NCBI RefSeq assembly: GCF_039555335.1
Contig: NC_092628.1
Span: 77,192,713-77,256,712, forward strand
DNA length: 64,000 nt
Reading direction: 5' to 3'
DNA from: Amphiura filiformis
Taxonomy: Eukaryota; Echinodermata; Ophiuroidea; Amphilepidida; Amphiuridae
In this document: positions 4,427-62,615 of the stretch, piece by piece
Numbering within the stretch: position 1 is the stretch's first letter
Layout of the letters: each line of letters opens with the position of its first letter
The notes under the pieces: model-generated
The model's database searches: none
The model's input: the letters and a program-made list of their open reading frames with translations, nothing else
What the model was told of the DNA's origin: nothing
Made by a program: the position numbers and the translations under genes

Positions 4427-4448
4427 GTATATGGGCGGCCGTGAGGGC
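4427..4448 (+). repeat. Outer cap of minisatellite-bearing element, copy A
   Basis: The cap includes ATGGGCGGCCGTGAGGGCC followed by AAAAGGG. The same cap closes the inverted copy at about 9713-9734 and begins another at 8649, so it is a mobile-element-like boundary rather than part of the tandem array. Confidence 0.7.
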
Positions 4449-7976: not shown

Positions 7977-8310
7977 CATGTGATCCTAGCATCCTTTTTT
8001 ATGACATTTTTCAGTAGATATCCACGAAAAAAGCTGATTCACAAAATTTCAATCCGATTTTGCGTTTGCGAGTTACGCATGATTATGTGTATTATTCCAT
8101 AGGCCACTGTTGTAATTTCGATCTGGTATACCGGTACCAGAACAAAATTCAAATTTTTTGCTAAATGAATTAATCTGCAAGAAATATTTAGTACATAAAC
8201 ATTATGTAGCCAAAATTTCCCAATGGTATAAAAATCTCAACTTTTTTGTTGTTGAAAAAGTGGTTGAATGAGGCTTTGGATCACGAAATGCCCTTTTAAC
8301 TGCATGTCAA
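7977..8310 (-). mobile_element. Diverged copy of the palindrome-centred MITE
   Basis: In reverse complement it carries the same landmarks as the copies at 27934-29606: AAAAGGGCATTTCGTGATCC at its end (about 8281-8300), the CTCAACTTTTT arm, a decayed CTGGTATACC palindrome at 8122-8150, GCAAACGCAAAATCGGA and GGATGCTAGGATCAC. It differs from them by many substitutions. It sits alone outside the satellite and so may represent the element before it was co-amplified. Confidence 0.75.
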
Positions 8311-11040: not shown

Positions 11041-11041
11041 A

Positions 11042-13600: not shown

Positions 13601-13989
13601 TCCGCCTTGGTTTAATTTTTATTTTTGCTTTTTTGGGGGTGGTGGAAGCATATGAATTTGTAAGCGCTCTATAAGCAAAGTCGTTGTTCATTGAATCTAC
13701 AACCGTATGGGCGAAACTAGTTAGCTATAGATTGGATTTCAGTTCAAAAAACAAAATGTACATGAACTTCTCACAAAATGACATAAGGCCCCAGACTATC
13801 ATGGCTGTAGAAGTTCGTGGCATTTTTAAAAGTAAACATTTGCTTAAATGCCTTTTATTTTAATTGCATTTCATTTTTGAGGGCGCTATAAGGCTTCCTT
13901 GAACGAGCTGCAGAGAAAGCTGATAATTATCATGTCTAGTGCGTTGTGTTGTGTTGTCAACGCACTGACCCACCAACATCCGTCAAAAG

Positions 13990-15222
13990 CAGTAGCGTAC
14001 GCAGGAATTTTTCAAGGGGGGTGTGATGATAAAAAAAAAGTAATAACATTTAAAAATGGCCGCGTAGCGGACATCGCGTCGCGCTTGCGCGACGGCAGGG
14101 GGGTGTCTGAGGGGGGATGAGCCCCCCTCAGAAGTAGGAAATTTTGCAAAATGAATACCTAATTGAAGTGATTTGGTGGACCATTTTGGTACTATTAGTG
14201 TGTACAATTTTAGTCTGAAAAAGCCGAAAAATTGTGAAATGACAGTCCACAAAGCCTTTTGTGAACAAGTTTTCCCTTTAATTGTAAGCCTATGATTTAT
14301 GTTAAACACAAATTGGTAAATGTCGAAAGCGAATATGGCCACATGTTTATCCACTATGCAGGGGGTGTCTGAGGGGGGATGTGCCCCCCTGAGAAACTTT
14401 TGCAAAGTAAAGACCTAATTGAAGCGATTTGGTGGACCATTTTGGCACTGATTAGTGTGTAAAATATTAGTTTCAAAAAGCCGAAAACTTTTGAAATGAC
14501 GGTCTACATGGTCTATGAAGCCTTTCGTGAACAAGTTTTCCCTCTGATGTTGCAAAATGAAGGTCCAATTGAAGCCATTCGGTGCATAATTTTCCCACTA
14601 TTTCAATGCAAATTACTGTCTAAATATGCTTTATTTTAACTTATTCTTTTGAAAAGCGATTAGATTTCGATTACAAATTTAATCATCTATTGCTTGCCAA
14701 CGGTTTTCAGCATGGCGCGATAACATGGCGCGATAACATGGCGCAATGCGGTGTAAGAGATGCAAAAGCGTGATGATGGGGTTGACAATTAAAACTGTCA
14801 ATTAACAATTTTAATTGTTAAATGACATACATGTTTACACCAACACCCCAGCAACGTAAGTTTTAACCTTAACGTATACGTACGTTGCCAGGGGTGTGAT
14901 GATGATGGGGGGGGGGGGTTGACATGTATCAACAATTAACACATTTACATAATGTTACTGGTCAATACCGGTTATGGGGTGATATAATTTGTGTGGGGGT
15001 TGTTAAGGCTATAGGCCTATGATATTATTGTGATAATATGTCCCCTATGCCTTGCTCATCTCCCACCTCTCCTCCCCCTATCTCCCTCCCTTCCTCTCCC
15101 TCTCTTTCTCTCCCCCCCCCCTCTCTCTCTCTTTCTTTGCCTTTTCTTTTCCCTCATTTTATTTTTTTGACAGATCCAAGGGGTGTTTCACACACGTAAC
15201 ACCCCCCCTGCGTACGCCAATG
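13990..15222. mobile_element. Probable non-autonomous element with GCGTACGCAGG ends and internal ~250-bp tandem repeat
   Basis: The left end is AGTAGCGTACGCAGGAATTT. Near 15200-15222 the right end reads CCCCCTGCGTACGCCAATGG, approximately its reverse complement. Inside, GGTGTCTGAGGGGGGATG occurs at about 14101 and 14364. Each copy is followed by about 190 bp of alignable sequence including GATTTGGTGGACCATTTTGG. CT-rich microsatellite lies at 15055-15150. The outer boundaries are tentative. Confidence 0.45.
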
Positions 15223-15229
15223 GTCAAAA

Positions 15230-16860
15230 GGGTAACTCTTTTAGCTTCTTTTGTGTTACTAAAAATAAATTTATGTCAAAATGTGCTCGAAATTAACCCT
15301 CAATGCTGCACATACTTGTAATTTTTGTATTTAAACCTATTTTATACTTTACAAAAAGAATTGCAAAAAATTAGATAGCATAGCATATTTAAAATAAATC
15401 CTGACATACCAGTAATAACATGTCAGACAATGCTGCATGCTGGTCATTTCTTTCTACAATATAGATTGAAAAATAATCTGAATATTAAATGTGCGCTTCA
15501 AAGTTTTAAATTGTAAGTTGCTCTACAGATAAGGAGGATACATCATAATGAAGACATAAATGAAGGCTAAGAGTAGTTTGACACTTATTTTGTTCAGCAT
15601 CTAACAAGTACATTTGTTAAAGTCCCATTCAGTGATTCCAGCGCAAGTGTCAAAAAATTAAAATTGTTTATAAAATGCTTAAAAATGAAGGATACGTCAT
15701 TCAAATTATCATTTGGTATTTTTGAAATAAAAACATTGGCATAAAACGAAGAAAACAGCAGTATACTGACGAAGTTGAAGCGCATTCAAATACATGTAGC
15801 TAATTTATATGAGTAGGCCTATATATTTACAGATTCACCGATATGCCTTTATTTTTCTTAAATACACGTGTTTAGAAAAGTGCTTACATATAATAAACAC
15901 TGGTTTTTGCAGTGTATTCTGTATACCCCTCTTCAGGACTTTTCTTTCCCCCTTAATCATGTTAATAAACTGCATTGTCTATACACCGCCGTTAACATCA
16001 AATTATAAACTTGTCATTATTGCCAAATTTTATAATTAGGTATGATCAATTAAGATTACTGACTAATTAATTATGTTCCGGTTGGTTAATAGTTACGTAT
16101 GGGCTATATTATGATAATTAGTGGATTGTATTATAAGCAGCAGATTAACCATTATTTCAAAAACTTTTATAGCTTTCAAGCAATCAAATGTTTATTTCCA
16201 TCAAAATAAAAAGAAAATATTATAAAAATACCAAAACGTAAATGAGCAAATCATTGATTAGGCCTAAAGTGGAAGCTAGTGGAGGGCAATGATTTTATAT
16301 AAAGCGAGTCGGAGGGAGTATGAGACAAACTAAGCTGATACACAAAATACATGGTATGGAAAGGAGATCACAAGGCTTGATATGAGGTGTCATTTCGGCA
16401 CAATGTTCATGATTTTTCTCGGGAGGGGGAAAACGCCAAAATGTTTCATATTGGTGATTGGTCGTACCTCAAGAATTGCAAGCTTCTTTGACTTACCCCT
16501 ATCACATCAATGTATTGCTAGTATTAAAGAAGTAAACTGCACTTTGTTATAGTTAAATGACTAAAACTGGAAGAAACTACATGTATGGCTCCTCCCAACC
16601 CACCCACATAATCTTTAAATAGCTTTACTTGTTAATATCCCCACAAGCTAGCCACGAAATACGGTTTCCTTTCTGAGTAAGTGTTTGAAATATTACTATT
16701 AGACTTACAAAATGATAGAAAACGATGTAGTGTAAAAGTGTCAACGTCATAATGATCAGATGATAGGCCTAGGAAAGTTCCGGGGGATATCGTCGGGGTT
16801 TGGTTTTTTTTCTCTGTCTCGACTGCTAATTTCAACTTTGTCAAATACCTTCACAATCCG
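15230..16860. other. Intergenic, no gene seen
   Basis: Only short chance frames. Four TAGGCCTA octamers fall in 15012-16771. Confidence 0.4.
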
Positions 16861-16871
16861 TCTGGACTCTT

Positions 16872-16975
16872 GGTCGATCCTTCGGCATGTAATTATTTCG
16901 TGTAAGCTAATCCTAACCCTAATCCTAACCCTAAACTAACCCTAACCCTAATTTCGTGTATAATTACATGAAAGA
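16872..16975 (-). mobile_element. Telomere-like MITE, copy T1
   Basis: Read in reverse complement, it has CTTTCATGTAATT, then TACACGAAAT, then a degenerate TTAGGG/GGATTA array of about 55 bp, then TTACACGAAAT, then AATTACATG...GAAGGATCGACC. This is the shortest nearly complete copy of the family described at 53524-53719. It carries a small insertion (CC) in the right terminal repeat. Confidence 0.75.
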
Positions 16976-17160
16976 GTACGGTAACCAAGCTTTGACCCTT
17001 GATACCTCGGAATAGCCATGGGTGCCCCCTGCGCATCTATTATTAGATTCTTATTCTATATATACTTTAAACGTAAAAGCAATATAGTGATACCTAACTT
17101 TACTCACAAAATGATACTTCGTGTTTACAGGATCACGATGATATAAATTATTTACTTGTT

Positions 17161-17240
17161 CAAATGCAAGTGGTTCCTTCAACTTGCAAAGTTGCAATTT
17201 TAGTGGCATCTCCAACTTTGTGGTTGACATAGATTCGGCA
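17161..17240 (+). repeat. Dispersed repeat shared with 30015-30105
   Basis: CAAATGCAAGTGGTTCCTTC, a central spacer and GGCATCTCCAACTTTGTGG recur in reverse complement at 30015-30105, with a diverged middle. Confidence 0.65.
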
Positions 17241-17261
17241 CTCGCTGCCGCGCTTCCCGCT

Positions 17262-17325
17262 CGTCCAGTTAGGGGTTAGGGTTAGGATTAGCTTACACGA
17301 AATAATTACATGAAGGATCGACCCA
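17262..17325 (+). mobile_element. Telomere-like MITE, 5'-truncated copy T4
   Basis: Starts abruptly in the array (TTAGGGGTTAGGGTTAGGAT), continues with TTACACGAAAT, AATTACATGAAGGA and TCGACCC. The left terminal repeat and most of the array are missing. Confidence 0.75.
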
Positions 17326-17507
17326 AAGCTTACAAAGGGGTCAAAATTCAAAATTGTTCCGATTTGGATAAAACCTAATTTAAAATCGGGTTTTAAATAT
17401 TCTTTTGGTCATGAGGATTCAAACAATTATTATACTTTGACATTATCTACAACTTATCAGTCTGGGTAATTCATTTAGAATGTTAGCAGTTTTTTTTACG
17501 ACATTTA

Positions 17508-22560: not shown

Positions 22561-23130
22561 GAGTATAAACTGAATGTCGACATCAAAGATTCGTGCTTAC
22601 ATGCCGGCATTTTGTCAGTATCAACTGAATTGAGGCATCAAAGACTCGTGCCTATGTTAAATGCCGGCATTTCGTCACTTACTTTTGGCATCAAAGAAAA
22701 TTTCTTGCTTAAATGCCGGTACTTTGTCAGTATTAAGTGAATGTCGGCATCAAAGACTCGTGCTTAAATGCCGGCATTTCGTCAATATTTACTAAATTTT
22801 GGCATCAAAGACTCATGCTTTAAGGTATTTCGTCACTATCTACTATATTTCGGCATCTCGTCACTTACATTTGGCATCAAAGATTCTTAAATGCCAGCAT
22901 TTCGTCAGTATTAACTGAAATTCGGCAGCAAAGATTCTTGCTTTATACACCTGTACTAGCAATTCGTCAGTGTTTACTGCATTTCATCACCCAGAGATTT
23001 GTTCTTATATAAATGCCGGCATTTTGTCAATATTTACTCTATTTCGAAGACTCGTGCATAAAGGCCGGTATTTCGTTAATATTAATACTTAATTTCGGCA
23101 TTAAAGACTCGTGCTTAAAGGCCGTCATTT
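22560..23130 (+). repeat. Diverged edge of the 54/57-bp satellite
   Basis: About ten degenerate monomers with the core ATGCCGGCATTTCGTCA and GGCATCAAAGACTCGTGCTT. They vary in length and sequence, as expected at the old edge of a satellite array. Confidence 0.8.
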
Positions 23131-23134
23131 CGTT

Positions 23135-23460
23135 CAAAGTTCAAAGTTCAAATTTATTTTATCAATCAATATCATACATAGCATAGCATATATAATAATA
23201 ACATTGAGTACAATAGACATAGTTTAATAAATATAATAACAATTAATAATAAGAGTAAATTGCAATAATATTAACAAAAAGATATATTGATAATAATTTG
23301 TGATGGTTAATATAACTTGAATACATAATCTATGTAATATATAATATTACTGTTCATGACGTTAATATACAATATATAATAATATGTTTATATTATTATA
23401 TATATTATTCGTCAGCATTAAAGGTTTTTTGCTTACACTCATATGTGTTTCTTTTTCATT
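23135..23460. repeat. AT-rich non-satellite spacer
   Basis: Starts with three TTCAAAG/TTCAAAT units, then ATTTATTTTATCAATCAAT and long (TA)-rich sequence. The part from 23325 onwards is repeated at 25107, where it lies directly against satellite. Confidence 0.7.
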
Positions 23461-25106
23461 AAAATATATTCTTGCTTAAATTCTGTCATTTCGTCATAAT
23501 TTAATGAACTTCGGTAATCAAAGACTCTTGCCTAAATACGTACCGGTATTTCGGCAATATTTAATTTCAACAATCAAAGGCTCTCGCTTGAATGCCGACA
23601 TTTAAAGTCAGTTTTAACTGGATTTTGGCATCAAATACTCTTGCTTGAATGCCGGCATTTCGTCAGTGTTACTGAATTTTGGCATCAAAGACTCTTGCTT
23701 GAATGCCGACATTTAAAGTCAGTTTTAACTGAATTTTGGCATCAAAGACTCTTGCTTGAATGCCGGCATTTCGTCAGTGTTACTGAATTTTGGCATCAAA
23801 GACTCTTGCTTGAATGCCGGCATTTCGTCAGTGTTACTGAATTTTGGCATCAAAGACTCTTGCTTGAATGCCGGCATTTCGTCAGTGTTACTGAATTTTG
23901 GCATCAAAGACTCTTGCTTGAATGCCGGCATTTCGTCAGTGTTACTGAATTTTGGCATCAAAGACTCTTGCTTGAATGCCGGCATTTCGTCAGTGTTACT
24001 GAATTTTGGCATCAAAGGCTCTTGCTTGAATGCCGGCATTTCGTCAGTGTTACTGAATTTTGGCATCAAAGACTCTTGCTTGAATGCCGACATTTCGTCA
24101 GTGTTACTGAATTTTGGCATCAAATACTCTTGCTTGAATGCTGGCATTTCGTCAGTGTTACTGAATTTTGGCATCAAAGACTCTTGCTTGAATGCCGGCA
24201 TTTCGTCAGTGTTACTGAATTTTGGCATCAAAGACTCTTGCTTGAATGCCGGCATTTCGTCAGTGTTACTGAATTTTGGCATCAAAGACAGTGTTGCTTA
24301 AATTCTGTCATTTCCTCATAATTTAATGAACTTCGGCAATCAAAGACTCTTGCCTAAATACGTACCGGTATTTCGGCAATATTTAGTGAATTTCAAAAAT
24401 CATAGACTCTCGCTTGAATGCCGACATTTAAAGTCAGTTTTAACTGGATTTTGGCATCAAAGACTCTTGCTTGAATGCCGGCATTTCGTCAGTGTTACTG
24501 AATTTTGGCATCAAAGACTCTTGCTTGAATGCTGGCATTTCGTCAGTGTTACTGAATTTTGGCATCAAAGACTCTTGCTTGAATGCCGGCATTTCGTCAG
24601 TGTTACTGAATTTTGGCATCAAAGACTCTTGCTTGAATGCCGGCATTTCGTCAGTGTTACTGAATTTTGGCGTCACAGACTCGCTTAAATGCCGGCATTT
24701 TCGTCAGTATTTAACTGAATTTTGGCATCACAGACTCTCGCTTAAATGCCGGCATTTTCGTCAGTATTTAACTGAATTTCGGCATCAAAGACTCTCGCTT
24801 AAATGCCGGTATTTCATCAATATTTACTGAATTTTGGTATCAAAGACTCTTGTTTGAATGCTGGCATTTCGTCAGTGTTACTGAATTTTGGCGTCAAAGA
24901 CTCGCTTAAATGCCGGCATTTTCGTCAGTATTTAACTGAATTTTGGCATCACAGACTCTCGCTTAAATACCGGCATTTTCGTCAGTATTTTACTGAATTT
25001 CTGCATCAAAGACTCTTTTTTTCGTGGATATCTACTGAAAAATGTCATAAAAAAAAGGATGCTAGAATCACAAAATACTCCTTTAAATGCCGGGATTTTC
25101 GTCAGT
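23325..25106 (+). repeat. Satellite higher-order block 1 (1,782 bp)
   Basis: Holds AT-rich spacer, then 54-bp monomers (TTGCTTGAATGCCGGCATTT...) at 23640-24290, a short spacer, a second run at 24420-24670 and 57-bp TCGCTTAAATGCCGG monomers. It ends with a 70-bp right-end fragment of the palindrome-centred MITE (25016-25086). The next base, 25107, restarts the same block, so this is one unit of a tandem duplication. Confidence 0.88.
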
Positions 25107-26778
25107 ATAATCTATGTAATATATAATATTACTGTTCATGACGTTAATATACAATATATGATAATATGTTTATATTATTATATATATTATTCGTCAGCAT
25201 TAAAGGTTTTTTGCTTACACTCATATGTGTTTCTTTTTCATTAAAATATATTCTTGCTTAAATTCTGTCATTTCGTCATAATTTAATGAACTTCGGTAAT
25301 CAAAGACTCTTGCCTAAATACGTACCGGTATTTCGGCAATATTTAATTTCAACAATCAAAGGCTCTCGCTTGAATGCCGACATTTAAAGTCAGTTTTAAC
25401 TGAATTTTGGCATCAAATACTCTTGCTTGAATGCCGGCATTTCGTCAGTGTTACTGAATTTTGGCATCAAAGACTCTTGCTTGAATGCCGACATTTAAAG
25501 TCAGTTTTAACTGAATTTTGGCATCAAAGACTCTTGCTTGAATGCCGGCATTTCGTCAGTGTTACTGAATTTTGGCATCAAAGGCTCTTGCTTGAATGCC
25601 GGCATTTCGTCAGTGTTACTGAATTTTGGCATCAAAGACTCTTGCTTGAATGCCGACATTTCGTCAGTGTTACTGAATTTTGGCATCAAATACTCTTGCT
25701 TGAATGCTGGCATTTCGTCAGTGTTACTGAATTTTGGCATCAAAGACTCTTGCTTGAATGCCGGCATTTCGTCAGTGTTACTGAATTTTGGCATCAAAGA
25801 CTCTTGCTTGAATGCCGGCATTTCGTCAGTGTTACTGAATTTTGGCATCAAAGACTCTTGCTTGAATGCCGGCATTTCGTCAGTGTTACTGAATTTTGGC
25901 ATCAAAGACAGTGTTGCTTAAATTCTGTCATTTCCTCATAATTTAATGAACTTCGGCAATCAAAGACTCTTGCCTAAATACGTACCGGTATTTCGGCAAT
26001 ATTTAGTAATTTCAAAATCATAGACTCTCGCTTGAATGCCGACATTTAAAGTCAGTTTTAACTGGATTTTGGCATCAAAGACTCTTGCTTGAATGCCGGC
26101 ATTTCGTCAGTGTTACTGAATTTTGGCATCAAAGACTCTTGCTTGAATGCTGGCATTTCGTCAGTGTTACTGAATTTTGGCATCAAAGACTCTTGCTTGA
26201 ATGCCGGCATTTCGTCAGTGTTACTGAATTTTGGCATCAAAGACTCTTGCTTGAATGCTGGCATTTCGTCAGTGTTACTGAATTTTGGCATCAAAGACTC
26301 TTGCTTGAATGCCGGCATTTCGTCAGTGTTACTGAATTTTGGCATCAAAGACTCTTGCTTGAATGCCGGCATTTCGTCAGTGTTACTGAATTTTGGCGTC
26401 ACAGACTCGCTTAAATGCCGGCATTTTCGTCAGTATTTAACTGAATTTCGGCATCAAAGACTCTCGCTTAAATGCCGGTATTTCATCAATATTTACTGAA
26501 TTTTGGTATCAAAGACTCTTGTTTGAATGCTGGCATTTCGTCAGTGTTACTGAATTTTGGCGTCAAAGACTCGCTTAAATGCCGGCATTTTCGTCAGTAT
26601 TTAACTGAATTTTGGCATCACAGACTCTCGCTTAAATACCGGCATTTTCGTCAGTATTTAACTGAATTTTGGCATCAAAGACTCTTTTTTTCGTGCATAT
26701 CTACTGAAAAATGTCACATAAAAAAAGGATGCTAGAATCACAAAATACTCCTTTAAATGCCGGGATTTTCGTCAGTAT
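25107..26778 (+). repeat. Satellite higher-order block 2 (~1,672 bp)
   Basis: Near-identical to block 1 from its AT-rich start, offset 1,782 bp. The first monomer run is shorter and the second longer than in block 1. The same MITE right-end fragment recurs at about 26683-26757. Confidence 0.88.
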
Positions 26779-27395
26779 TTAACTGAATTTCGGCATCAAA
26801 GACTCTCGCTTAAATGCCGGCATTTCGTCAGTGTTACTGAATTTTGGCGTCAAAGACTCTCGCTTAAATGCCGGCATTTTCGTCAGTATTTAACTGAATT
26901 TCGGCATCAAAGACTCTCGCTTAATTGCCGGGATTTTCGTCAGTATTTAACTGAATTTCGGCATCAAAGACTCTCGCTTAAATGCCGGCATTTTCGTCAG
27001 TATTTAACTGAATTTCGGCATCAAAGACTCTCGCTTAAATGCCGGCATTTTCGTCAGTATTTAACTGAATTTCGGCATCAAAGACTCTCGCTTAAATGCC
27101 GGCATTTTCGTCAGTATTTAACTGAATTTCGGCATCAAAGACTCTCGCTTAAATGCCGGGATTTTCGTCAGTATTTAACTGAATTTCGGCATCAAAGACT
27201 CTCGCTTAAATGCCGGCATTTTCGTCAGTATTTAACTGAATTTCGGCATCAAAGACTCTCGCTTAAATGCCGGCATTTTCGTCAGTATTTAACTGAATTT
27301 CGGCATCAAAGACTCTCGCTTAAATGCCGGCATTTTCGTCAGTATTTAACTGAATTTCGGCATCAAAGACTCTCGCTTAAATGCCGGGATGCTCT
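26779..27395 (+). repeat. 57-bp satellite monomers (TCGCTTAAATGCCGG type)
   Basis: About 11 homogeneous 57-bp monomers with TTTCGTCAGTATTTAACTGA and TTCGGCATCAAAGACTC. They differ from the 54-bp type mainly by extra T/TTA positions, which bring in-frame stops. Confidence 0.9.
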
Positions 27396-27590
27396 GGCCA
27401 AAATATGGTATACCAGAACGAAATTACAACACATTGTCTATGGAGCAGTGTATATAATACACATAAATCATGCATAACTCACAAACGCAAAATCGGAATC
27501 AACTGAAAATTTGGGAATAAGTTTTTTTCGTGGATATCTACTGAAAATGTCATAAAAAAAGGATGCTAGGATCACGAAATACTCCTTTAA
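27396..27590 (+). mobile_element. Palindrome-centred MITE, left-truncated copy
   Basis: Begins at GCTCTGGCCAAAATATGG, joins the right half of the palindrome (GGTATACCAGAACGAA) and runs to ACTCCTTTAA at 27590. Confidence 0.8.
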
Positions 27591-27933
27591 GTGCCGGGAT
27601 TTTCGTCAGTATTTAACTGGATTTCGGCATCAAAGACTCTCGCTTAAATGCCGGCATTTTCGTCAGTATTTAACTGAATTTCTGCATCAAAGACTCTCGC
27701 TTAAATGCCGGCATTTTCGTCAGTATTTAACTGAATTTCGGCATCAAAGACTCTCGCTTAAATGCCGGCATTTTCGTCAGTATTTAACTGAATTTCGGCA
27801 ATAAAGACTCTCGCTTAATTGCCGGCATTTTCGTCAGTATTTAACTGAATTTCGGCATCAAAGACTCTCGCTTAAATGCCGGGATTTTCATCAGTATTTA
27901 ACTGAATTTCGGCATCAAAGACTCTCGCTTAAG
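27591..27933 (+). repeat. 57-bp satellite monomers
   Basis: Six monomers, including one with AATAAAGACTC and TTAATTGCCGG variants that also recur before the next two MITE copies. Confidence 0.88.
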
Positions 27934-28283
27934 TTAAAAGGGCATTTCGTGATCCACAGCCTCATCCCCCCACTTTTCTCAAAAAAAGTTGAGATTTTTA
28001 TATTACTGGAAACCTCTGGCTACATAATATAATGTTTGTGTACAAAAATGTCTTGCAGATTAATTCGTTTAGCAAACATATCGTAAAAATTTCGTTCTGG
28101 TATACCAGAACGAAATTACAACACATTGTCTATGGAGCAGTGTATATAATACACATAAATCATGCATAACTCGCAAACGCAAAATCGGAATCAACTGAAA
28201 ATTTGGGAATAAGTTTTTTTCTTGGATATCTACTGAAAAATGTCATAAAAAAAGGATGCTAGAATCACAAAATACTCCTTTAA
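27934..28283 (+). mobile_element. Palindrome-centred MITE, full copy 1
   Basis: Left end TTAAAAGGGCATTTCGTGAT and right end CACAAAATACTCCTTTAA are imperfect inverted repeats ending in TTAA. TTAA also exists in the satellite target (CGCTTAAATGCC), so insertion at TTAA is likely (piggyBac-like, inferred). At the centre is a perfect 30-bp palindrome at 28088-28117, whose right half is TATACCAGAACGAAATT. No coding capacity. Confidence 0.85.
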
Positions 28284-28626
28284 ATGCCGGGATTTTCGTC
28301 AGTATTTAACTGGATTTCGGCATCAAAGACTCTCGCTTAAATGCCGGGATTTTCGTCAGTATTTAACTGAATGTCGGCATCAAAGACTCTCGCTTAAATG
28401 CCGGTATTTTCGTCAGTATTTAACTGAATTTCGGCATCAAAGACTCTCGCTTAAATGCCGGCATTTTCGTCAGTATTTAACTGAATTTCGGCAATAAAGA
28501 CTCTCGCTTAATTGCCGGCATTTTCGTCAGTATTTAACTGAATTTCGGCATCAAAGACTCTCGCTTAAATGCCGGGATTTTCATCAGTATTTAACTGAAT
28601 TTCGGCATCAAAGACTCTCGCTTAAG
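28284..28626 (+). repeat. 57-bp satellite monomers
   Basis: Six monomers in the same variant order as the blocks on either side, the spacer part of the MITE-satellite higher-order repeat. Confidence 0.85.
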
Positions 28627-28974
28627 TTAAAAGGGCATTTCGTGATCCACAGCCTCATCCCCCCACTTTTCTCAAAAAAGTTGAGATTTTTATATTACTG
28701 GAAACCTCTGGCTACATAATATAATGTTTGTGTACAAAAATGTCTTGCAGATTAATTCGTTTAGCAAAGATATCGTAAAAATTTCGTTCTGGTATACCAG
28801 AACGAAATTACAACACATTGTCTATGGAGCAGTGTATATAATACACATAAATCATGCATAACTCGCAAACGCAAAATCGGAATCAACTGAAAATTTGGGA
28901 ATAAGTTTTTTTCTTGGATATCTACTGAAAAATGTCATAAAAAAGGATGCTAGAATCACAAAATACTCCTTTAA
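28627..28974 (+). mobile_element. Palindrome-centred MITE, full copy 2
   Basis: Same ends and same flanking satellite position as copy 1. The perfect palindrome lies at 28780-28809. Confidence 0.85.
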
Positions 28975-29260
28975 ATGCCACGATATTCGTCAGTATTTAA
29001 CTGGATTTCGGCATCAAAGACTCTCGCTTAAATGCCGGGATTTTCGTCAGTATTTAACTGAATGTCGGCATCAAAGACTCTCGCTTAAATGCCGGCATTT
29101 TCGTCAGTATTTAACTGAATTTCGGCAATAAAGACTCTCGCTTAATTGCCGGCATTTTCGTCAGTATTTAACTGAATTTCGGCATCAAAGACTCTCGCTT
29201 AAATGCCGGGATTTTCATCAGTATTTAACTGAATTTCGGCATCAAAGACTCTCGCTTAAG
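28975..29260 (+). repeat. 57-bp satellite monomers
   Basis: Five monomers. One fewer than in the previous block accounts for the 634-bp versus 693-bp spacing of the MITE copies. Confidence 0.85.
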
Positions 29261-29606
29261 TTAAAAGGGCATTTCGTGATCCACAGCCTCATCCCCCCAC
29301 TTTTCTCAAAAAAGTTGAGATTTTTATATTACTGGAAACCTCTGGCTACATAATATAATGTTTGTGTACAAAAATGTCTTGCAGATTAATTCGTTTAGCA
29401 AAGATATCGTAAAATTTCGTTCTGGTATACCAGAACGAAATTACAACACATTGTCTATGGAGCAGTGTATATAATACACATAAATCATGCATAACTCGCA
29501 AACGCAAAATCGGAATCAACTGAAAATTTGGGAATAAGTTTTTTCTTGGATATCTACTGAAAAATGTCATAAAAAAGGATGCTAGAATCACAAAATACTC
29601 CTTTAA
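29261..29606 (+). mobile_element. Palindrome-centred MITE, full copy 3
   Basis: Same ends as copies 1 and 2. The perfect palindrome lies at 29413-29442. Confidence 0.85.
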
Positions 29607-30000
29607 ATGCCGGGATTTTCGTCAGTATTTAACTGGATTTCGGCATCAAAGACTCTCGCTTAAATGCCGGGATTTTCGTCAGTATTTAACTGAATGTCGG
29701 CATCAAAGACTCTCGCTTAAATGCCGGTATTTTCGTCAGTATTTAACTGAATTTCGGCATCAAAGACTCTCGCTTAAATGCCGGCATTTTCGTCAGTATT
29801 TAACTGAATTTCGGCATCAAAGACTCTCGCTTAAATGCCGGAATTTTCGTCAGTATATAACTGAATTTCGGCATCAAAGACTCTCGCTTAAATGCCGGGA
29901 TGCTCTGGCCAAAATATGTCGGTATATTGTCATTACTGAATTTCGGCATCAAAGACTCATTTAAATGCAGGCCTTTAGCTCAGCATTCATGAATTTCGGC
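29607..30000 (+). repeat. 57-bp satellite monomers and decaying right edge
   Basis: Five good monomers, then GGGATGCTCTGGCCAAAATATG at about 29898 (the same junction as at 27388 but without the MITE), then degenerate monomers. Confidence 0.85.
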
Positions 30001-30831: not shown

Positions 30832-31190
30832 ATATTGAAGAAAAAAAACACAATTACAGGGAAAAGTATGGGTTCAATACGTTAGATCCCAAGGCTCATA
30901 ATGGGTTTTATAACATTCAAAAACATTTTGAAAACTTGCTGCGAAACATTCTAACATATATAAATGTGTATATGTGTTGACTAAATATTTTGCAAAAACG
31001 TTTGCAAGCAAATAATTTATAATAACATTTCGGCAACATGTTGTCAGTATTGTTGTATAAGGATACAAAACATTTAAAACGTTTTCATGACATTTATCAG
31101 CTTACCCGACATTTAATGTTATTGAAACGTTTTCATCAAAATCACTTTTTAAAACGTTTTTAGAAATATTGTTGGGTTTGCTCACATTTC
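30832..31190. repeat. Intergenic with half-copy of the CAGCAAACAC MITE family
   Basis: 31090-31190 contains CCCGACATTTAATGTTATTG, AAACGTTTT and TTGTTGGGTTTGCTC, the right half of the family whose complete copy is at 12266-12519. Confidence 0.5.
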
Positions 31191-31196
31191 GGTTAC

Positions 31197-31336
31197 TCCT
31201 TCATGTAATTTTACACGAAATTAGGGTTAGGGTTAAGGTTAGGATTAGGATTAGTTTAGGGTTAGGATTAGGGTTAAAGTTAGGATTAAGGTTAGGATTA
31301 GCGTTATGATTATGATTAGGGTTAGGATTAGGCACA
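31197..31336 (+). mobile_element. Telomere-like MITE, 3'-truncated copy T2
   Basis: TCCTTCATGTAATT, TTACACGAAAT, then about 110 bp of TTAGGG/GGATTA/GGGTTAAGG variants, ending at ATTAGGCACATTTC without the right-hand repeats. Confidence 0.78.
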
Positions 31337-31691
31337 TTTCTCGGAATGCTAAAGGCTACCCATTGGGCACCTGTTGTCGTCTCTTAGGCTCTCATTTAGA
31401 ACACCCTAGATTTCAGGATCTTTGCAACCAAACCGCTGGAGCGATCAAACTCAAAACTTGGAATGAGACTGTGCAAGGTTGAACACCAAACAATCAGAGC
31501 GACCACGCACCTTTAACAACTATTTTATTTGTAACACATATCATTGTTTTTATGTGAAATACTATTGACGTTATAATTAAAGTACGATTTAGTATGATAA
31601 TAAATAGAGCATACATATTAATCATTGTGTTTAAATATTAAAATGGTCCTTGTCAGACATGTTTTTAAATTATTGAAGCTATAAATGCGCT

Positions 31692-33500: not shown

Positions 33501-33540
33501 AGAAAGGGAGGAAAGCATGAAGGCAACCAATAGCCCACTA

Positions 33541-34975
33541 TAAAACGCAGTAGAAAGTGGAGACAATCTACTGACGAGATTCTTCAGGTTTCGAAGAAAC
33601 TCCGTAACACATTCAAACACCATAAAACGCAGTAGAAAGTGGAGACAATCTACCGACGAGATTCTTCAGGTTTCGAAGAAACTCCGTAACACATTCAAAC
33701 ACCATAAAACGCAGTAGAAAGTGGAGACAATCTACAGACGAGATTCTTCAGGTTTTGAAGAAAATCCTTAACACATCCAGGCACCATTAAACGCAGTAGA
33801 AAGTGGAGACAATCTACTGACGAGATTCTTCAGGTTTCGAAGAAACTCCGTAACACATTCAAACACCATAAAACGCAGTAGAAAGTGGAGACAATCTACA
33901 GACGAGATTCTTCAGGTTTTGAAGAAAATCCTTAACACATCCAGGCACCATTAAACGCAGTAGAAAGTGGAGACAATCTACTGACAAGATTCTTCAGGTT
34001 TCGAAGAAACTCCGTAACACATTCAAACACCATAAAACGCAGTAGAAAGTGGAGACAATCTACAGACGAGATTCTTCAGGTTTTGAAGAAAATCCTTAAC
34101 ACATCCAAGCACCATAAAACGCAGTAGAAAGTGGAGACAATCTACCGACGAGATTCTTCAGGTTTTGAAGAAACTCCATAACACATTCAAACACCATAAA
34201 ACGCAGTAGAAAGTGGAGACAATCTACAGACGAGATTCTTCAGGTTTCGAAGAAACTCCGTAACACATTCAAACACCATAAAACGCAGTAGAAAGTGGAG
34301 ACAATCTACAGACGAGATTCTTCAGGTTTTGAAGAAAATCCTTAACACATCCAGGCACCATTAAACGCAGTAGAAAGTGGAGACAATCTACAGACGAGAT
34401 TCTTCAGGTTTCGAAGAAACTCCGTAACACATTCAAACACCATAAAACGCAGTAGAAAGTGGAGACAATCTACAGACGAGATTCTTCAGGTTTCGAAGAA
34501 ACTCCTTAACACATCCAGGCACCATTAAACGCAGTAGAAAGTGGAGACAATCTACTGACGAGATTCTTCAGGTTTCGAAGAAACTCCGTAACACATTCAA
34601 ACACCATAAAACGCAGTAGAAAGTGGAGACAATCTACAGACGAGATTCTTCAGGTTTTGAAGAAAATCCTTAACACATCCAAGCACCATAAAACGCAGTA
34701 GAAAGTGGAGACAATCTACCGACGAGATTCTTCAGGTTTTGAAGAAACTCCATAACACATTCAAACACCATAAAACGCAGTAGAAAGTGGAGACAATCTA
34801 CAGACGAGATTCTTCAGGTTTTGAAGAAAATCCTTAACACATCCAAGCACCATAAAACGCAGTAGAAAGTGGAGACAATCTACAGACGAGATTCTTCAGG
34901 TTTTGAAGAAACTCCATACAAAGCATTCATTCCCCTTCTATAAAACGCAGTAGAAAGTGGAGACAATCTACTAAT
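33541..34975 (+). repeat. 82-bp minisatellite, ~18 copies
   Basis: Each unit has ACGCAGTAGAAAGTGGAGAC, AATCTAC, GACGAGATTCTTCAGGTTT and a tail. Two tail types alternate irregularly. One reads CGAAGAAACTCCGTAACACA with TTCAAACACC. The other reads TGAAGAAAATCCTTAACACA with TCCAGGCACC. Degenerate half-units flank it from about 33490 and to about 35010. The order of tail types repeats in groups, so multi-unit segments were duplicated together. Confidence 0.92.
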
Positions 34976-34984
34976 GATATTCTT

Positions 34985-36694
34985 CAAGATTTCAAGAAAT
35001 TCCATACAAAGCCTCTATTTTTTAAGCGTAAAGCAGCATATTTGGACATACCATTTTATTGGAGTATCTTTAACCATATTTAGTTACTGAATCACCCTTC
35101 CAGCTTTTGGGAGGGTGGGTGGGATTTTTGGTCCATCAAGATCGAAGGAACAATTGCAAGTGCATCACTAGGAGAACTATGGACATAACAAAGGAATTAA
35201 AAAAATAAGACGGGAGACCTGAATGGCTGCACACCACTAAAGTGACAGCTGACTGGACAGAAAAACTGAGCTTGTTGCTATAACAACATAACAACAACCC
35301 CTAAATTAAAACTGACTTGACCAGATGACCAAAACACTTTAAGTGTACTTGAGAATGCTCAAGTGGGAATAAGAGGATAAGCCTCTACACCTAGATGCAC
35401 ATGACAGCCTAATGTCCCCTGCTGCTGAGACAATCTAGTTTTTTAAAAGATTTGCAACTTTAAAAACGGAATTAATTATGACTTTAAAAGTTTAAAGGCC
35501 TAAATGTAACAATAATAGTTAATATATATAGCATCATATGGTCAGCAGAAGAAAATCTGACATCACCTATGATGTCATATCAGTGTCCTTGACCGGGGGT
35601 CCTTACTCCTTGAATACTGAACAGCGTGATATCATGTTGATAACAGATCTATAGAATCAAAATCTTCATCATATCCTCGGATCATATCACAGATTCTCAA
35701 CAATCTGTGATCATATGGACCATATTGATGTGAAAGTAGTTATCTATCATATCCTGTGTCGTTTTATGGATAAAAATGACTCAAAATGTTATTGATGAAA
35801 TGGTTGCTATCATAAACATCAGTTTTGTCTTTTCAACGGGAAAAATCCGATGCAAAATAAAGTTTTTAGGGCCTAGCTATAATATGGGCATAATTTATGC
35901 ATATAGTATTGAACAATGTACCCCATTTGACATGCACTTATAGATAAATAAATTGTCTTACTTTATTAATTTAATAACTTCTTTATTATAAATAAAATGA
36001 CACATAACTATTTGATTCATAAAATTACATTCAACAAAATGATTGAAGAGAAAACACACAAGGCACTAGGCAGACTGTTATAGAATGGAGTATGTAAGAT
36101 GCCATGTCCATAGCTTCGCAGGAGTTTCCGACTAGCAATCAACATGATCAGCACATTCAGAAAAACACAGTTTAAGAGTGAAGATTGTAGTGAGTAACCA
36201 GTCCTTTATAAATGTGCTGGCCACTATCTATTATAATATAGTAGGCTTAAACTATACATTGCGAATTAATTAAGTTATTTTAAAATAAAATGTACATGTA
36301 AGTTAACTCAAACCGGCAGTATATCGAAAGCAGTGAAATCGGACATTCCTAAGCGAAGATATTGAGTTCGTAAGTTCTGGTATTACAAAATTGGAAATTG
36401 AGATATCGTGGGTAAAAAGCTGAAAAGACAAAAAAAAAAAACCAACGACAACAACAACAACAACAAAACAAACAGACCAGAACAATTTGGAGTACATGTA
36501 ATGAATTAAAAGAGTTGACATGAGATTAGGAATTAATGTTTTCTGCTGTTTCAGTGTGCATGTTCTCATCGTTGATGGTTTGGTGGACTGTCATGTAGAT
36601 GTAAGCGTGATCCTAAAATGCCTTTCACATTGACCAAAACTAATTACAAGACCTCTTCTACATTGAGGCTGGCTTTCCCTTTTAAAGGGAATTT
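34985..36694. other. Intergenic 3' of SLC34, no gene seen
   Basis: Contains an ATCACAGATT...AATCTGTGAT hairpin (about 35687-35713) and (AAC)n near 36445-36470. No coding evidence. Confidence 0.4.
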
Positions 36695-36855: not shown

Positions 36856-45157
<8,302 letters not shown>

Positions 45158-45559
45158 ATCAGCCTAAAACATGAAAATAAGTTTTTTACAAAAACTTTCT
45201 TTAAATTAACAGACAATTAACTATATTTTTGCCTGAAAGACGTAAGAATATAGGCCTGTACGTATAACCTTTTTAATGCGTACATTAATGGCGAAGTAGC
45301 AGAATTTAATTACAAAATTTTCAGGGGATTGGGGAAAGATCACCTAAATACCTGAAGAAAGACAACAATCACAATAATCGCATCATTTTCAGGCGAAAAA
45401 AAATCTTCATCTTCGCGTAAACTTCTACGACACTGCCCTGGAAATATGGTTTTCTATTAAGGGATGGGGTATGAACGTTTGGACAGTATTTATTGTGAGA
45501 CATAATTATAGAGCACATCAGACATATCGAATTTTGATTTTTTTGAAATTCGCAATGTA

Positions 45560-46164
45560 CGAGGGGTATCCAAAAGTTTTTGACATCACCCAGAAGCAAA
45601 GGAGCTATATTGATGAAATTTTGTCAGTGTAATTACTGGTCCTTATGTACATTATGGTCCAAAAATGGTCTCATTAGTATGTTTACTTTTTTACAGGTGG
45701 CGCCAGATGGGCAATAGGCGCATAACCTGTAAAATGGTGAAAATTGAGGCACGCAGCGTGATTAAGTTCCTGCATTTGAAGGGTTAGGCCTACAATGGTC
45801 AGAAAATCTATGATGAAATGAAAGCTATCTACGGTGATAATTGCCCATCATATGGCACTGTTGATTTTTGAAAAAGGAATTTCAAAACTGGCCACATGTC
45901 CCTCACAGATGAGCCAAGAAGTGGGCGTCCATCACTTTCGGATGATGCGGTCACAGTGAAAAAATTCAAGAAAGTGGAGGATCTTATCATGAAAAGATTA
46001 TGCGCCTACTGCCCATCTAGCGCCACCTGTAAAAAAAGTAAACATACTTATGAGACCATTTTGGACCATAATGCACATAAGGACCAGTAATTACACTGAC
46101 AAAATTTCATCGATATAGCTCCTTTGCTTCTGGATGATGTCAAAAACTTTTGGATACCCCCTCG
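45560..46164 (+). mobile_element. Mariner-family element, internally deleted (605 bp), with long inverted repeats
   Basis: Starts CGAGGGGTATCCAAAAGTTT and ends with the reverse complement AAACTTTTGGATACCCCCTCG-type sequence, flanked by TA at 45558-45559 and 46165-46166. The inverted repeats run about 165 bp, to GGCGCCAGATGGGCA / TGCCCATCTAGCGCC. Between them lies a transposase N-terminal fragment that reads VKIEARSVIKFLHLKG, MKAIYGDNCPSYGTV and the mariner HTH linker SLTDEPRSGRPS. The fragment has at least two stops, and the catalytic domain is missing. Confidence 0.88.
45735..46000 (+). pseudogene. Mariner transposase fragment (N-terminal HTH only)
   Basis: Corresponds to the first helix-turn-helix and the GRPS motif that precedes the second HTH in mariner transposases. 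In-frame stops (after HLKG and after TVDF) and loss of the DD34D core make it non-functional. Confidence 0.8.
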
Positions 46165-46700
46165 TAATACACATTTTGTGGCAAATGATTAAAAATTGAT
46201 ATTTTTGATACTTAACAGTACTCGAAGTAAACTTTACAAATCTGATGATTTATACTTAAAGTGTATGTAGGTGGGATGAAAAACCGACGATCAATCAAAA
46301 TTTTGACCTTTCGTATTGAAGATATGGATTTTTTTCCCAAAACACCCCAAAAAATGGGTCTTTTTGGGAAAAATCCATATCTTCAATATGAAAGGTCAAC
46401 ATTTTCAATTGATCGTCGGCTTTTCCTCCCAGCTACATACACTTTAAGAATATATCATTAGATTTATAAAATTTACTGAAAGGACTGTTATATATCAAAA
46501 ATGTGGAAATATCAAATTCAATAATTTGTCATAAAATTTGTATCATATCGTGAATTTCAAAAAATGAAAATTATTTGATATCGATCAGAAAGACATTCTC
46601 CGTATTCAGAATGCAATTCGATATGTCTAGCTGATGTGCTCTCATGCATGTTCCACAAAAAATACTGTCGAAACGCTCAAAACGCTCATTCCAGAACCCG

Positions 46701-52998: not shown

Positions 52999-53523
52999 AG
53001 CTTGCTAAACACACAGTACGATCATAGACAACAACGATTGAGCTGACGTCATCTATTAATATTTATCAATATTTATCCATTAATATTTATCAATTTTTTT
53101 TTTTTATTTCACCAACTTGCCCAAAACTTTTGTTTTGATATTTTATCGGTTTAAACTCAAGAATGGCAAGACCTGTGAAATTTGGCTTTACCCATTTCCT
53201 ATAAGATCAATACATTAATAGTAAGAAGTACACGGACGGCTAGAATTGGGAAAAAAGCTCCTGCCAAATTCAGACAAATTCTTGTCAACCTCAGTGGTCT
53301 AAAACAATGAAATTGCAAAACCTCAACATGCTCGAAAAGCACGAAGAGTCATGTCATCGGATTTATTTCCGTATTATTGAGGGAATCAAGTATAATGTGG
53401 TTGATCTTTTTTTAAATTGACGATTAAATTCCATACAAATAGAAAATATTGTCAGGCACTACAAATTTTTTTTTTAATTAAGAAGTAAAACAAAACCAAC
53501 CCAGTGTGCCTTTATTTGGTTAT

Positions 53524-53719
53524 TCCTTCATGTAATTTTACACGAAATTAGGGTTAGGGTTAGGGTTAGAGTTAGGGTTAGTTTAGGGTTAGGATTAGGG
53601 TTAGGATTAGGGTTAGGGTTAGGGTTAGGATTAGGGTTATGATTAGGATTAGATTTAGGGTTAGGGTTATGATTAGGGTTAGAGTTAGGATTAGATTACA
53701 CGAAATAATTACATGAAGG
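53524..53719 (+). mobile_element. Telomere-like MITE, complete copy T3
   Basis: TCCTTCATGTAATT (outer inverted repeat), TTACACGAAAT (inner direct repeat), then about 145 bp of degenerate TTAGGG units (TTAGGG, GGATTAG, GTTAGAG, GTTATGA), then TTACACGAAAT and AATTACATGAAGGA. It is flanked on the right by TCGACCC, as in copies T1 and T4. Confidence 0.88.
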
Positions 53720-53729
53720 ATCGACCCTT

Positions 53730-54236
53730 TATTTTCAATATTGTTACCATTGTCAATGCATAAGAATTCATTCACTACATGCATACATAATATAGTGTGT
53801 ACAGAATTTTAGGAACAAAATAAGTCACGTCATTATCATGGAACAAAATCAATTTTTTTTTCGTTTTCACTTAATATTCCTTTTTATTTAACATGCTAAG
53901 CTTTCCTGAGAATTTTACAGAAAGGAAGGCATTTACTTGCAGAAAATAATTGAACGGTTAATTTGTTATCCGACCGCGCCTTATCTGAAAATCAGCCATT
54001 TTAGGGACAAAATGACTCGTTTTGCATGATCGCATCACATAATCGCGTCTGTGATACTCAATCGCTTGATGATTTGCCAAAGGCAATTTGTGATATTTAG
54101 GTTTTACATATTTGTGGCTCTTGAATTAGGGTCAAAATATGAGAAAACAAATTTTGACAGATCTTGAAAATACAGCTGAAGGATTCCCGGTCAACAGAGA
54201 GTGACTTTAAAAAAAACTTAAAAAACTTAAAAGAAT
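53730..54236. other. Intergenic, no gene seen
   Basis: No coding signal or recognised repeat. Confidence 0.4.
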
Positions 54237-54916: not shown

Positions 54917-55788
54917 TTATGTTATTTGAACATCAGTTCTGTTTGAAACATACCATAGCCGTGCATCTTTGAACCATTTTATCTTTTCATCACGACCACC
55001 TTTCCAATTATTGTGGACCACCACAGGCTTGTGCATCTCTCGCCATTCAGCGAAGTCAAGATAATAATTTAAAATACCATTTGGAAATTTACTCGCATCT
55101 AACATTTTAACCTTTAATTTAGGTATGATATTCTCATTGATGATATCAGTTAATAGGATTTGCTCTGAAGTATTATTATTGTTTTTGTCAATCCTATTAA
55201 CGAGTTCTTTAATTAGTAGCAATGATGGGTTAGTTGCACGGTAATACACGAATCCAGTACTGAGAACGTTTTTCTTATCGTGGTGATCTTTTTCCAAATA
55301 GATATCGTAATTCCCATCAAAATATGGAAATGGATCATCTATCCAAACTATATCAACATCATTAAATAAAACGTTCAGTCCTCGCTGAAGAAATTTCTTG
55401 ATATGAGTTGGTCTTTGATTGACGAACTTTCTGTGTAGTGGCGACTGGATGGGAAGATCATGGGACGTTTTGTATTGATTTAACAGTACCCGTATATCAT
55501 TTCGTTTTTTCAACAGTTCATACGCAACGTTATCCTCGGCTATGATAGATATATCTGGCCATATTCCAGTTTTGCGGATACTCGCCAACCAGTTTTCAGC
55601 AATATTTACAAAAGCGGCATTTACAGTTGTAAGGACCACTGTATTAGCTGGACCACTAGGAACAGTAGGGGGCGCTGGACCGAATTGTGGTGCGGGCGCT
55701 TCTTGGATTATTTCAGCTATCGGTTTAACGTCATCATCTGAACTAATTGTCCCATCTTCATTCCAAAGTCGCATGTTCAGTAATGAGT
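54917..55788 (-). CDS. Glycosyltransferase gene 1, exon 3 (catalytic domain)
   Basis: Acceptor TATTTTAG (AG at 55790-55789). It encodes residue 35 to the end, with the stem and the whole GT77-like domain. Confidence 0.92.
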
Positions 55789-58700
55789 CTAAAATACAAA
55801 ACAGTTGTTCGAAATAAAATCATCAGTCATAACTATCAGTTGAATGATCAATCACTGTGACTAATCAATCAATCAATCAAGTAAGCAAGCAATCAATTCA
55901 GTTCCATTAATTGTTAATTGATTAATTGATCGATCACACAAAACCTTTTGGAAAAAGTTGCCATAAAACGTCAAATGTAGGGTAAAAGCAATCAAGTAGT
56001 CTTCCCAGCAATCACAAAACGTTTTGTAAAAGGTTAGAAAATTTTGACAGAAAATGTTTAAATTTCGGGTTTGAATGTTTTGATAGGCCTATAATATTTT
56101 AAAAAGATGTAACAATATCATTTGACAACATTTTCAGTGATAGCTTAGATAGTGTTTTTTCAAATGTTCTAAAAAACAAGTTTGGTTGATCTATAGATAT
56201 CTATTACACATCCAAAGTGATCGACGACAGGCCGATTTCTGCGTGGATCATATTAATTTCCTTTGAAATGGTTTGATTTTTGTTTTAGTAGTTTCTACTC
56301 ACCATTTAAAATGCTAATACACGCCAGCACTGCAATTATAAGAATGCAGCTCTTGATGGAAATCTTGGACCAAAACCTGGTAAACAATAATGGGAAAAGT
56401 TACATAACATAACATAACATAACATAACATAACATAACATAACATAACATAACATAACATAACATAACATAACATAACATCTATTAACCATTTTACCATC
56501 TTTACATATAAGCGGGAAGCGGCCATTTTGGATTTATGCAAATTAGGCCCTGTTTCACTACTTGAATTTCAGGGACATTTGATATGTTTTGGTGAGCTTT
56601 TGGGATATGGGTGCATGTGAAATGGATTGTGTTGCAATTAGTATAGTGGCTTAAGGGCTGGGGTATGAACGTTTGGACAGTATTTATTTTGGGACATCAG
56701 AGCACATCAGACATATCGAATTGCATTCTGAATACGAAGAATGTCATTCTGATATCAAATAATTTTGATTTTTGAAATTCGCAATTTAATACACATTTTA
56801 TGGCAAATCATTAAAATTGATATTTTGATATTTAACAGTACTTGAGTAAACTTTATAAATCTGATGATTTATACTTAAAGTGTATGTAGGTGGGATGAAA
56901 AGCCGACGATCAATTGAAAATTTTGACCTTTCGTATTGAAGATATGGATTTTTTTCCCAAAACACCAAAAAAATTAGGTCTTTTTGGGAAAAAATTCATA
57001 TCTTCAATATGAAAGGTCAAAATTTTCAATTGACCGTCGGCTTTTCCTCCCTGCTACATACACTTTAAAATATATCATTAGATTTATATAATTTACTTCG
57101 AGGACTGTTATATATCAAAATTTGAAAAATATCAAATTTTTATAATTTGTCATAAAATTTGTATTATATTGTGATTTTCAAAAATGAAAATTATTTGATA
57201 TCAGAAAGACATGCTTCGTATTCAGAATGCAATTCGATAGCTCTGAGGTGCTCTCATGTCCCACAAAAAATACTGTCAAAACGCAATAAACGCTCATTTT
57301 AGATCCCTTAATCCATATCTAACACTTAGACTAGGTTAATTCAAACCGCGTTTTACTTGACGAAGGTTAACGTATAGCGCACTTGAATATCAAATATATG
57401 ATAAAAATGTTTGGGTGTGGTAACAAACTGTTACCATGGTTACATATAGTAACATTTAATGTCTTTTATTTAAATGTTCGATTTGCAATTGATTTTGGTA
57501 AGCATTTGTTGCTCCAACTAGTGTAAACTTCGTAGGGCGTGTTATGCTACTGAACAAGTGACCTAGAACGAAGCCATTCATTCATTTAATATTTGCCTAA
57601 CCTATATGACCTATTGCAAGTACAATTTCAGTGAAGTTCACACACGTACACCTACATATATCAATTGTTATAATGCTTTCATCCATATACGAACAAACCC
57701 AATATTTCAGCGAATCTGTATAAAATGAGCTATGGACAAGTACATGATGTCCCAATAAAAACGCAACCCAACTTTGACCAATTTTTCTCAGGTTTATTTA
57801 TAGTAAATCAATATAGTCTATTGTCTATGAAAATGTTTTGAGCAAAAATCGTAAAATTCACATGCGTCGTTGACCCAGCAATCACAAAACGTTTTCGACA
57901 TTGTTCGCAAAAGGTTAGAAAAGGTTGTCAGAAAACGTTTAAATGTCGGGTTAAAAAAGGTATACAAAGGGTATAAAACGTTTTCATATCATTTAAAAAC
58001 ATTTTTTTGATAACTTACTGCAAATATTCTTACATAATATTTGAGAAAAATCCTTGGAAATACGAAGGTTCTGACCGTATGGTTAAGAAATGTAACATAC
58101 GTTACCAGAAAGTACATCATTAAAACAAACAAGTGACTATAAACTTAAGCAAATTACTGAAGCAGGTGATACTTGATCAACTTCATTAATTTTATTTCAT
58201 TAACGCAATTCCAACATACTTGTCTGGCACTTTGAAGTTAAAATGTAACCCACGAGACAAACACACGTTACCATTAATTTTAACACCCTATCAAAATTAA
58301 CTAAAACTGCGCCCAATTACCCCTGGATTGTTTTTTAATAGTGCCACCATATGCATTATAGGTAGGCCTACTTTAAAAACTTGGCATTACAGAAAATATG
58401 CTCAATGAAAAGTATCCTAATTGTAACATAAATTTCATCTAAAATGTCACGTAGATTTCTACTCTTTTTCAACTCTTTTTGAGGCAATTAATTCTCCTCT
58501 AACAAACATTTAAACTTAAAGGCGACATTTCATTGTTTTATGCCAACACATTTAGTTCATGCACTGTCAAAAAAACGTATACTCCTTTCAATCTAATGGT
58601 ATAATGTAGGTTTCGTGACTCACTTTCTTTGAAGTTCGTTGAATTCTTTGAATTTTGCATATTAAATAAAAGCATCAAGAATTGATGACAGCAAGAATGA

Positions 58701-60894: not shown

Positions 60895-62615
<1,721 letters not shown>

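Follow-up and report, generated by a model that had tools for sequence, protein, structure and literature searches.

A probable family of miniature DNA transposons carrying telomere-like TTAGGG arrays in Amphiura filiformis

A 64,000-nucleotide stretch of the Amphiura filiformis genome (contig NC_092628.1 of assembly GCF_039555335.1, positions 77,192,713 to 77,256,712 of the forward strand) was analysed and is referred to as the window; positions are counted from its first base. It contains four complete or partial copies (A to D) of a short element in which a degenerate TTAGGG array is enclosed by transposon-like ends. The copies very probably belong to a family of very small non-autonomous cut-and-paste DNA transposons (miniature inverted-repeat transposable elements, MITEs) with the telomere-like array as inherited cargo. 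That the arrays travel inside a transposon is strongly indicated by the anatomy of the copies. Exact 8-bp direct repeats were found at the element ends in three of four junction pairs (A, B and, with an inversion undone, C-left/D-right), and an irregular 26-mer is common to three arrays. Both observations support the proposal of an earlier sequence-only reading that a transposable element, possibly a MITE, has spread the arrays as its cargo. Interstitial TTAGGG arrays are commonly attributed to past chromosome fusions or repaired breaks.

Anatomy of the copies

Copy A is a complete element (Table 1). Its array is bracketed by 11-bp direct repeats, which lie inside a 14-bp inverted repeat that is exact at 53524-53537 and 53707-53720. 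The true ends were located 6 bp beyond this repeat (GGTTAT on the left and, as reverse complement, GGTCGA on the right), giving 20-bp terminal inverted repeats that are identical at 17 of 20 positions and start with GG. Tandem Repeats Finder (TRF) called the array of A at 53548-53694 with period 6 and unit TTAGGG.

The exact 14-mer occurs four times in the whole window (twice in A, at 31197-31210 and at 17304-17317), and two matches with three mismatches lie elsewhere. Such recurrence within 64 kb is far beyond chance. Five exact occurrences of the 11-mer TTACACGAAAT were counted (two in A, one each at 17293 and 31211, and one at 16895 on the minus strand). One-mismatch matches to it lie at 16951, in copy C, and at 52382, in none of the copies.

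All six surviving ends start with GG (3/3 left, 3/3 right). The two ends can nevertheless be told apart: GGTTA is carried by each of the three surviving left ends (A, B, C), and TCGACC closes each of the three surviving right ends (A, C, D). Relative to these ends, array orientation is identical in all four copies. The left end of B opens with GGTTACTCC at 31191, followed by the direct repeat and the array up to 31332. In C the terminal repeats are imperfect, with three additional bases at the right end and five additional bases plus one mismatch at the left end. A measures 209 bp (array 146 bp), B 142 bp (array 111 bp) and C 115 bp (array 44 bp). At 115-209 bp, the elements have no room for a gene.

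Exact string matches confirmed the nested repeats that the sequence-only reading had described in copy A. Its span for this copy, 53524-53719, ended one base short and within the real ends, 53518-53726. The same architecture had been claimed for three further loci; the recurrence stood, and the details of all three were revised. An inverted copy is present at the first locus, C, where it extends over 16872-16986 instead of 16872-16975 and has inexact terminal repeats. D, reported as left-truncated at 17262-17325, does lack a left terminus, but its array begins at 17268, not at 17262. B, reported as right-truncated, does lack a right terminus, but is not simply truncated, as an 8-bp direct repeat is present at both ends. 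The outer flank TCGACC of that reading forms the last 6 bp of the right terminus.

Table 1. Coordinates of the TTAGGG-carrying copies, their parts and their flanking repeats in the window.
Feature	Position	Strand	Remarks
Copy A	53518-53726	+	complete, 209 bp; TTAGGG-like array with a direct repeat and a terminus on each side
A, left target duplication	53510-53517	+	8 bp, CTTTATTT
A, left terminus	53518-53537	+	20 bp, GGTTATTCCTTCATGTAATT
A, left inner direct repeat	53538-53548	+	11 bp, TTACACGAAAT, exact
A, array	53549-53694	+	degenerate TTAGGG; 10 of 25 units exactly TTAGGG
A, right inner direct repeat	53696-53706	+	11 bp, TTACACGAAAT, exact
A, right terminus	53707-53726	-	20 bp; reverse complement GGTCGATCCTTCATGTAATT, 17/20 identical to left terminus
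A, right target duplication	53727-53734	+	8 bp, CTTTATTT
Copy B	31191-31332	+	left terminus 31191-31210, direct repeat 31211-31221, array 31222-31332; without right terminus
B, repeat adjoining left end	31183-31190	+	8-bp direct repeat, CACATTTC
B, repeat adjoining array end	31333-31340	+	8-bp direct repeat, CACATTTC
Copy C	16872-16986	-	
C, right part		-	right terminus 16872-16894, direct repeat 16895-16905, array 16907-16950
C, left part		-	direct repeat with one mismatch 16951-16961, left terminus with extra bases 16962-16986
C, repeat adjoining left end	16987-16994	-	CAAAGCTT; partner of 17324-17331
Copy D	17268-17323	+	array 17268-17291, direct repeat 17293-17303, right terminus 17304-17323; without left terminus
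D, repeat adjoining right end	17324-17331	+	CAAAGCTT; together with 16987-16994, probable 8-bp duplication of a single element divided by inversion
C/D inverted arms	16886-17312		16886-16925 and 17273-17312; 40 nt, 98% complementary, 347 nt between

Target duplications and a probable inversion

Within 40 nt on either side of A and of B, the only shared 7-mers lie inside the 8-bp repeats. At two random window positions, an exact 8-bp repeat was obtained with a probability of 0.00013 (200,000 draws), rising to 0.0017 when both boundaries were allowed to slide by 2 (100,000 draws). With the right boundary of B placed anywhere in 200 bp, the probability was 0.016; the repeat of B sits exactly at the array end. 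An origin of B by random deletion, leaving flanks without relation to each other, was rejected on the exact 8-bp repeat that adjoins both of its ends.

The flanks of C and of D do not match at their own ends, and the crossed pair C-left/D-right is exact (CAAAGCTT) in inverted orientation. The idea that C and D inserted independently, with one duplication apiece, was rejected on these grounds. When one inversion was undone, a complete element flanked by an 8-bp direct duplication resulted for all 54 breakpoint pairs tried inside the two arrays, and an adjacent fragment with a right end only was left (junctions D left and C right). The 40-nt arms shared by C and D were likely the substrate of the inversion.

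A general scan was run for 8-bp duplications combined with a 14-bp inverted repeat, using thresholds chosen after A had been seen. It returned 16 rows including A, most of the others in satellites or palindromes; ten first-order Markov sequences gave 2 rows in total. When the scan was repeated with 9-bp duplications, 63 rows were obtained, nearly all of them satellites and none at the TTAGGG-carrying family.

A probable single inherited array

The longest string common to the arrays of A, B and C is the 26-mer TTAGTTTAGGGTTAGGATTAGGGTTA, which holds an irregular TTAG-TTTAGGG junction. Its offset within the array is 29 in A and in B, and 11 in C. Units were permuted within each array with the first unit fixed. 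Any common string of that length was obtained in 13 of 5000 shuffles and the 26-mer itself in all three arrays in 0 of 5000; the former is the fairer figure, since the 26-mer was chosen after being seen. Pairwise array alignments were matched or exceeded by 9 (A-B), 17 (A-C) and 57 (B-C) of 2000 shuffles. Because the irregular 26-mer is common to A, B and C, their arrays are best explained by a single ancestral one, which was most likely present in the common ancestor of the three copies and carried along, not made anew at each site. TRF called TTAGGG arrays at three loci of the window (16907-16951, 31221-31332 and 53548-53694), and all three belong to the family, as does the short array of D.

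The arrays are about 24-146 bp long across the four copies. That a short internal repeat expanded inside the element, as the sequence-only reading had added, is possible, and the arrays do vary in length. A related account retains the transposon but takes the array to be a common hexanucleotide microsatellite that expanded from a seed present by chance in the element, without telomeric origin. This is a real if lesser possibility. The arrays are degenerate, with only 3 of 19 units exactly TTAGGG in B (10 of 25 in A) and TTAGGA common, the junction GAAAT/TAGGG supplies a seed, and MITEs with another microsatellite are on record, according to a listing in PMC6947457. Against a chance seed stand the unit, which is exactly the commonest animal telomere repeat, and the sharp 11-bp direct repeats on both sides, which suggest a discrete insertion or capture.

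Classification of the element

The ends are best described as Merlin-like. Merlin elements are described in PMC8101967 as having 5'-GG ends, 8- or 9-bp duplications, imperfect inverted repeats of 24-462 bp (the range for the first described families) and, within some copies, tandem repeats. The present family shares the 5'-GG ends, the 8-bp duplications and the imperfection of the inverted repeats, and differs in its TTAGGG cargo. It was not classed as Merlin because its termini measure 20 bp as against 24-462 bp and because no transposase was seen or fully sought. A non-autonomous Merlin derivative may lie outside this length range.

Elements of the hAT superfamily likewise make 8-bp target duplications. 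Mobilisation of the same anatomy by a hAT-type transposase, or by one of another 8-bp family, instead of a Merlin transposase is nevertheless rather unlikely. Usual hAT termini begin with CAG or TAG, as opposed to GG at six of six surviving ends here, and the hAT target consensus nTnnnnAn was fitted by none of the three duplications on either strand. A Helitron/Helentron-type element with a tandem core does not fit: such elements are not known to make a target duplication, and 8-bp duplications were seen in three of four junction pairs. The string TGGTCCTTATGTAC at 45637 was tried as a relative of the family's terminus and rejected, as it sits within the long inverted repeats of a mariner-like element.

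Alternative origins of the arrays

Break repair, in which telomerase made each TTAGGG stretch at its own locus and the flanking repeats are incidental, is very improbable as an account of the four loci. The inner direct repeats around the array do look like a break-repair duplication, but the termini, the inner repeats and the irregular 26-mer recur at different loci, an outcome that independent events would not yield. Independent formation at each locus thus failed on the 26-mer, which is common to A, B and C at the same offset in A and B. Break repair stays a good account of a single founding event.

An origin as relics of chromosome fusion (old telomeres) or as copies of one duplicated segment can be dismissed almost completely: TTAGGG arrays are the classic mark of fusion, but those found here are just about 24-146 bp long, and exact 8-bp repeats adjoin the element ends in three of four junction pairs. 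When the window was compared with itself, keeping matches longer than 60 nt with E no greater than 1e-6 and omitting some satellite pairs, the similarity among A, B and C stopped within 3 nt of the element.

Points against the transposon interpretation

Several observations weigh against a MITE family with an inherited array. The evidence consists of four partial or complete copies within one window. Copy A alone retains both ends together with a direct duplication of its own, and B has lost or never had a right terminus. A match between C and D is obtained only across the two copies and requires an inversion, and several flank pairings were tried. The left-over pair D-left/C-right has no 8-bp repeat, with 1 of 8 junction positions equal and a longest common string of 5 bases in 40 nt. 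The B-C array alignment surpasses its shuffles only weakly.

The terminal repeats fall below the length range of Merlin. No transposase was found among the Pfam matches of 10 of the 41 listed open reading frames (ORFs), a six-frame transposase search not having been made. Exact element strings (the 25-base left and right junctions, a 20-base and a 19-base string) gave no match in a viral collection, which is not expected to include such a genome. Likewise, no match to an exact 21-base junction was obtained in a prokaryotic collection, where an animal-like genome is not expected; these negatives carry little weight. In the mechanism proposed below, the capture step and the gap-repair step are inferred.

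Other features of the window

The mariner-like element mentioned above extends over 45557-46167 and has inverted arms of about 173 nt (94%). By eye, remnants within it read like the N-terminus of a mariner transposase. The element interrupts a repeat, and a second copy of this repeat at 56651-57311 looks by eye like the empty site with a TA target. A candidate hAT-like element was noted at 13982-15230, with the 8-bp repeat GTCAAAAG around the ends CAGTAGCGTACGCA and CATTGGCGTACGCA. Another candidate element, at 11041-11942, has the 9-bp repeat ACAGTCTGT around the ends CCCAATAAAAATAG and CCCAATAAAAATGC.

Related 19-bp satellites of the GGTCTCAAAAACACGTTAT type form two inverted blocks, about 81% alike, at 4425-5296 and 8797-9739. 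Long blocks of a 54-57-bp satellite occupy 22562-29901; spacers between the later blocks match 7979-8301 at about 80% on the opposite strand. An 82-bp satellite is present at 33536-35003 (17.8 copies, 91% matches).

Host genes were assigned by Pfam at 36856-37923, 43368-43787, 54917-55819 and 60895-61740, all on the minus strand. They comprise two pieces of a Na/phosphate cotransporter and two nucleotide-diphospho-sugar transferase ORFs. Among the 10 ORFs selected from the 41 listed, four scored above the curated cut-off, and their identities point to an animal. One Pfam-matched ORF was compared with sequences of solved structures and gave two weak matches (E 0.0043 and 0.65). Rfam identified one tRNA in the window, tRNA-Asn.

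Discussion

MITEs that carry tandem repeats are an established kind, as documented in PMC6947457 and PMC12628747. Among the closest parallels is miDNA4 of Xenopus, a satellite-bearing MITE of the Tc1/mariner superfamily (Scalvenzi and Pollet, as reviewed in PMC12628747). In both systems a MITE harbours a tandem array whose copy number varies and which is flanked by short direct repeats, and for miDNA4 the capture of a pre-existing tandem repeat has been proposed. The superfamily is a different one, the miDNA4 array is a satellite and the present one consists of telomere-like hexamers. The direct repeats of miDNA4 are described there as AT-rich and 5 bp or more in length, whereas a single 11-bp sequence is used here. 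Insect MITEs with hitchhiking (GTCY)n microsatellites (Coates et al. 2011, a table entry in PMC6947457) are alike in carrying a microsatellite, but their repeat differs and is unrelated to telomeres.

Short interstitial telomeric sequences from telomerase-linked break repair, as treated in PMC2246262, also consist of a TTAGGG array, at times with a target duplication; there, a duplication is given for 6 of 130 telomeric insertions in rodents and 4 of 25 in primates. Unlike these, the array in the window lies inside a multi-copy transposon and is inherited by its copies. Transposition of mobile elements has been named in PMC6410037 as a possible source of interstitial telomeric sequence. That proposal is backed by neighbouring mobile elements, while the array described here is located between the element's own ends and target duplications. 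Among literature titles and abstract openings, no report was found of a TTAGGG array as internal cargo of a MITE or other target-duplicating DNA transposon.

For the family in the window, the following mechanism is proposed. A transposase supplied by a gene at another site, probably one of the Merlin/IS1016 type, would bind the ends and move the element together with its TTAGGG-like cargo. Array length would be altered by gain and loss of units. In the repair of transposase-made gaps, copying that halts inside the array could also alter its length and would yield one-ended copies like B. After excision of B, copying from the sister would have started on the left, dropped off within the array and been joined to the uncopied right duplication. 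Interrupted gap repair of this type would leave the broken end exactly adjoining the duplication. It is tentatively favoured for B because the array, judged by eye, is unlike the right terminus in the needed orientation; use of a surrogate end within the array by the transposase was considered and seems less likely for the same reason. Neighbouring inverted copies would recombine, as at C/D.

The array itself may have entered a palindromic element of ~51 bp on a single occasion, in the form of a patch with a short duplication or microhomology around it, and would then have been multiplied by transposition. A single entry is suggested by the 11-bp direct repeats around the array. These may be likened to a target duplication around a break-repair patch or to short flanking repeats of the miDNA4 type. 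A more far-reaching scenario is offered tentatively and is itself unlikely to hold in full. A GG-ended, probably Merlin-type MITE would have captured a telomerase-made TTAGGG patch once and would now be the genome's main source of interstitial telomeric repeats. The array would act as a weak point at which gap repair halts and recombination between inverted copies takes place, so that the element would scatter telomere sequence and rearrangement sites together.

The family would serve as a clear-cut example of repeat cargo passed on by transposition, in which the arrays lend themselves to unit-by-unit alignment. It suggests that transposons, in addition to fusion and break repair, can bring telomere repeats to mid-chromosomal sites. 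Interstitial telomeric repeats are used in reconstructing karyotype history. Should such arrays be spread by a transposon that has recognisable ends and makes 8-bp duplications, the sites concerned would be uninformative on fusions, and the classes of site would be separable by sequence alone.
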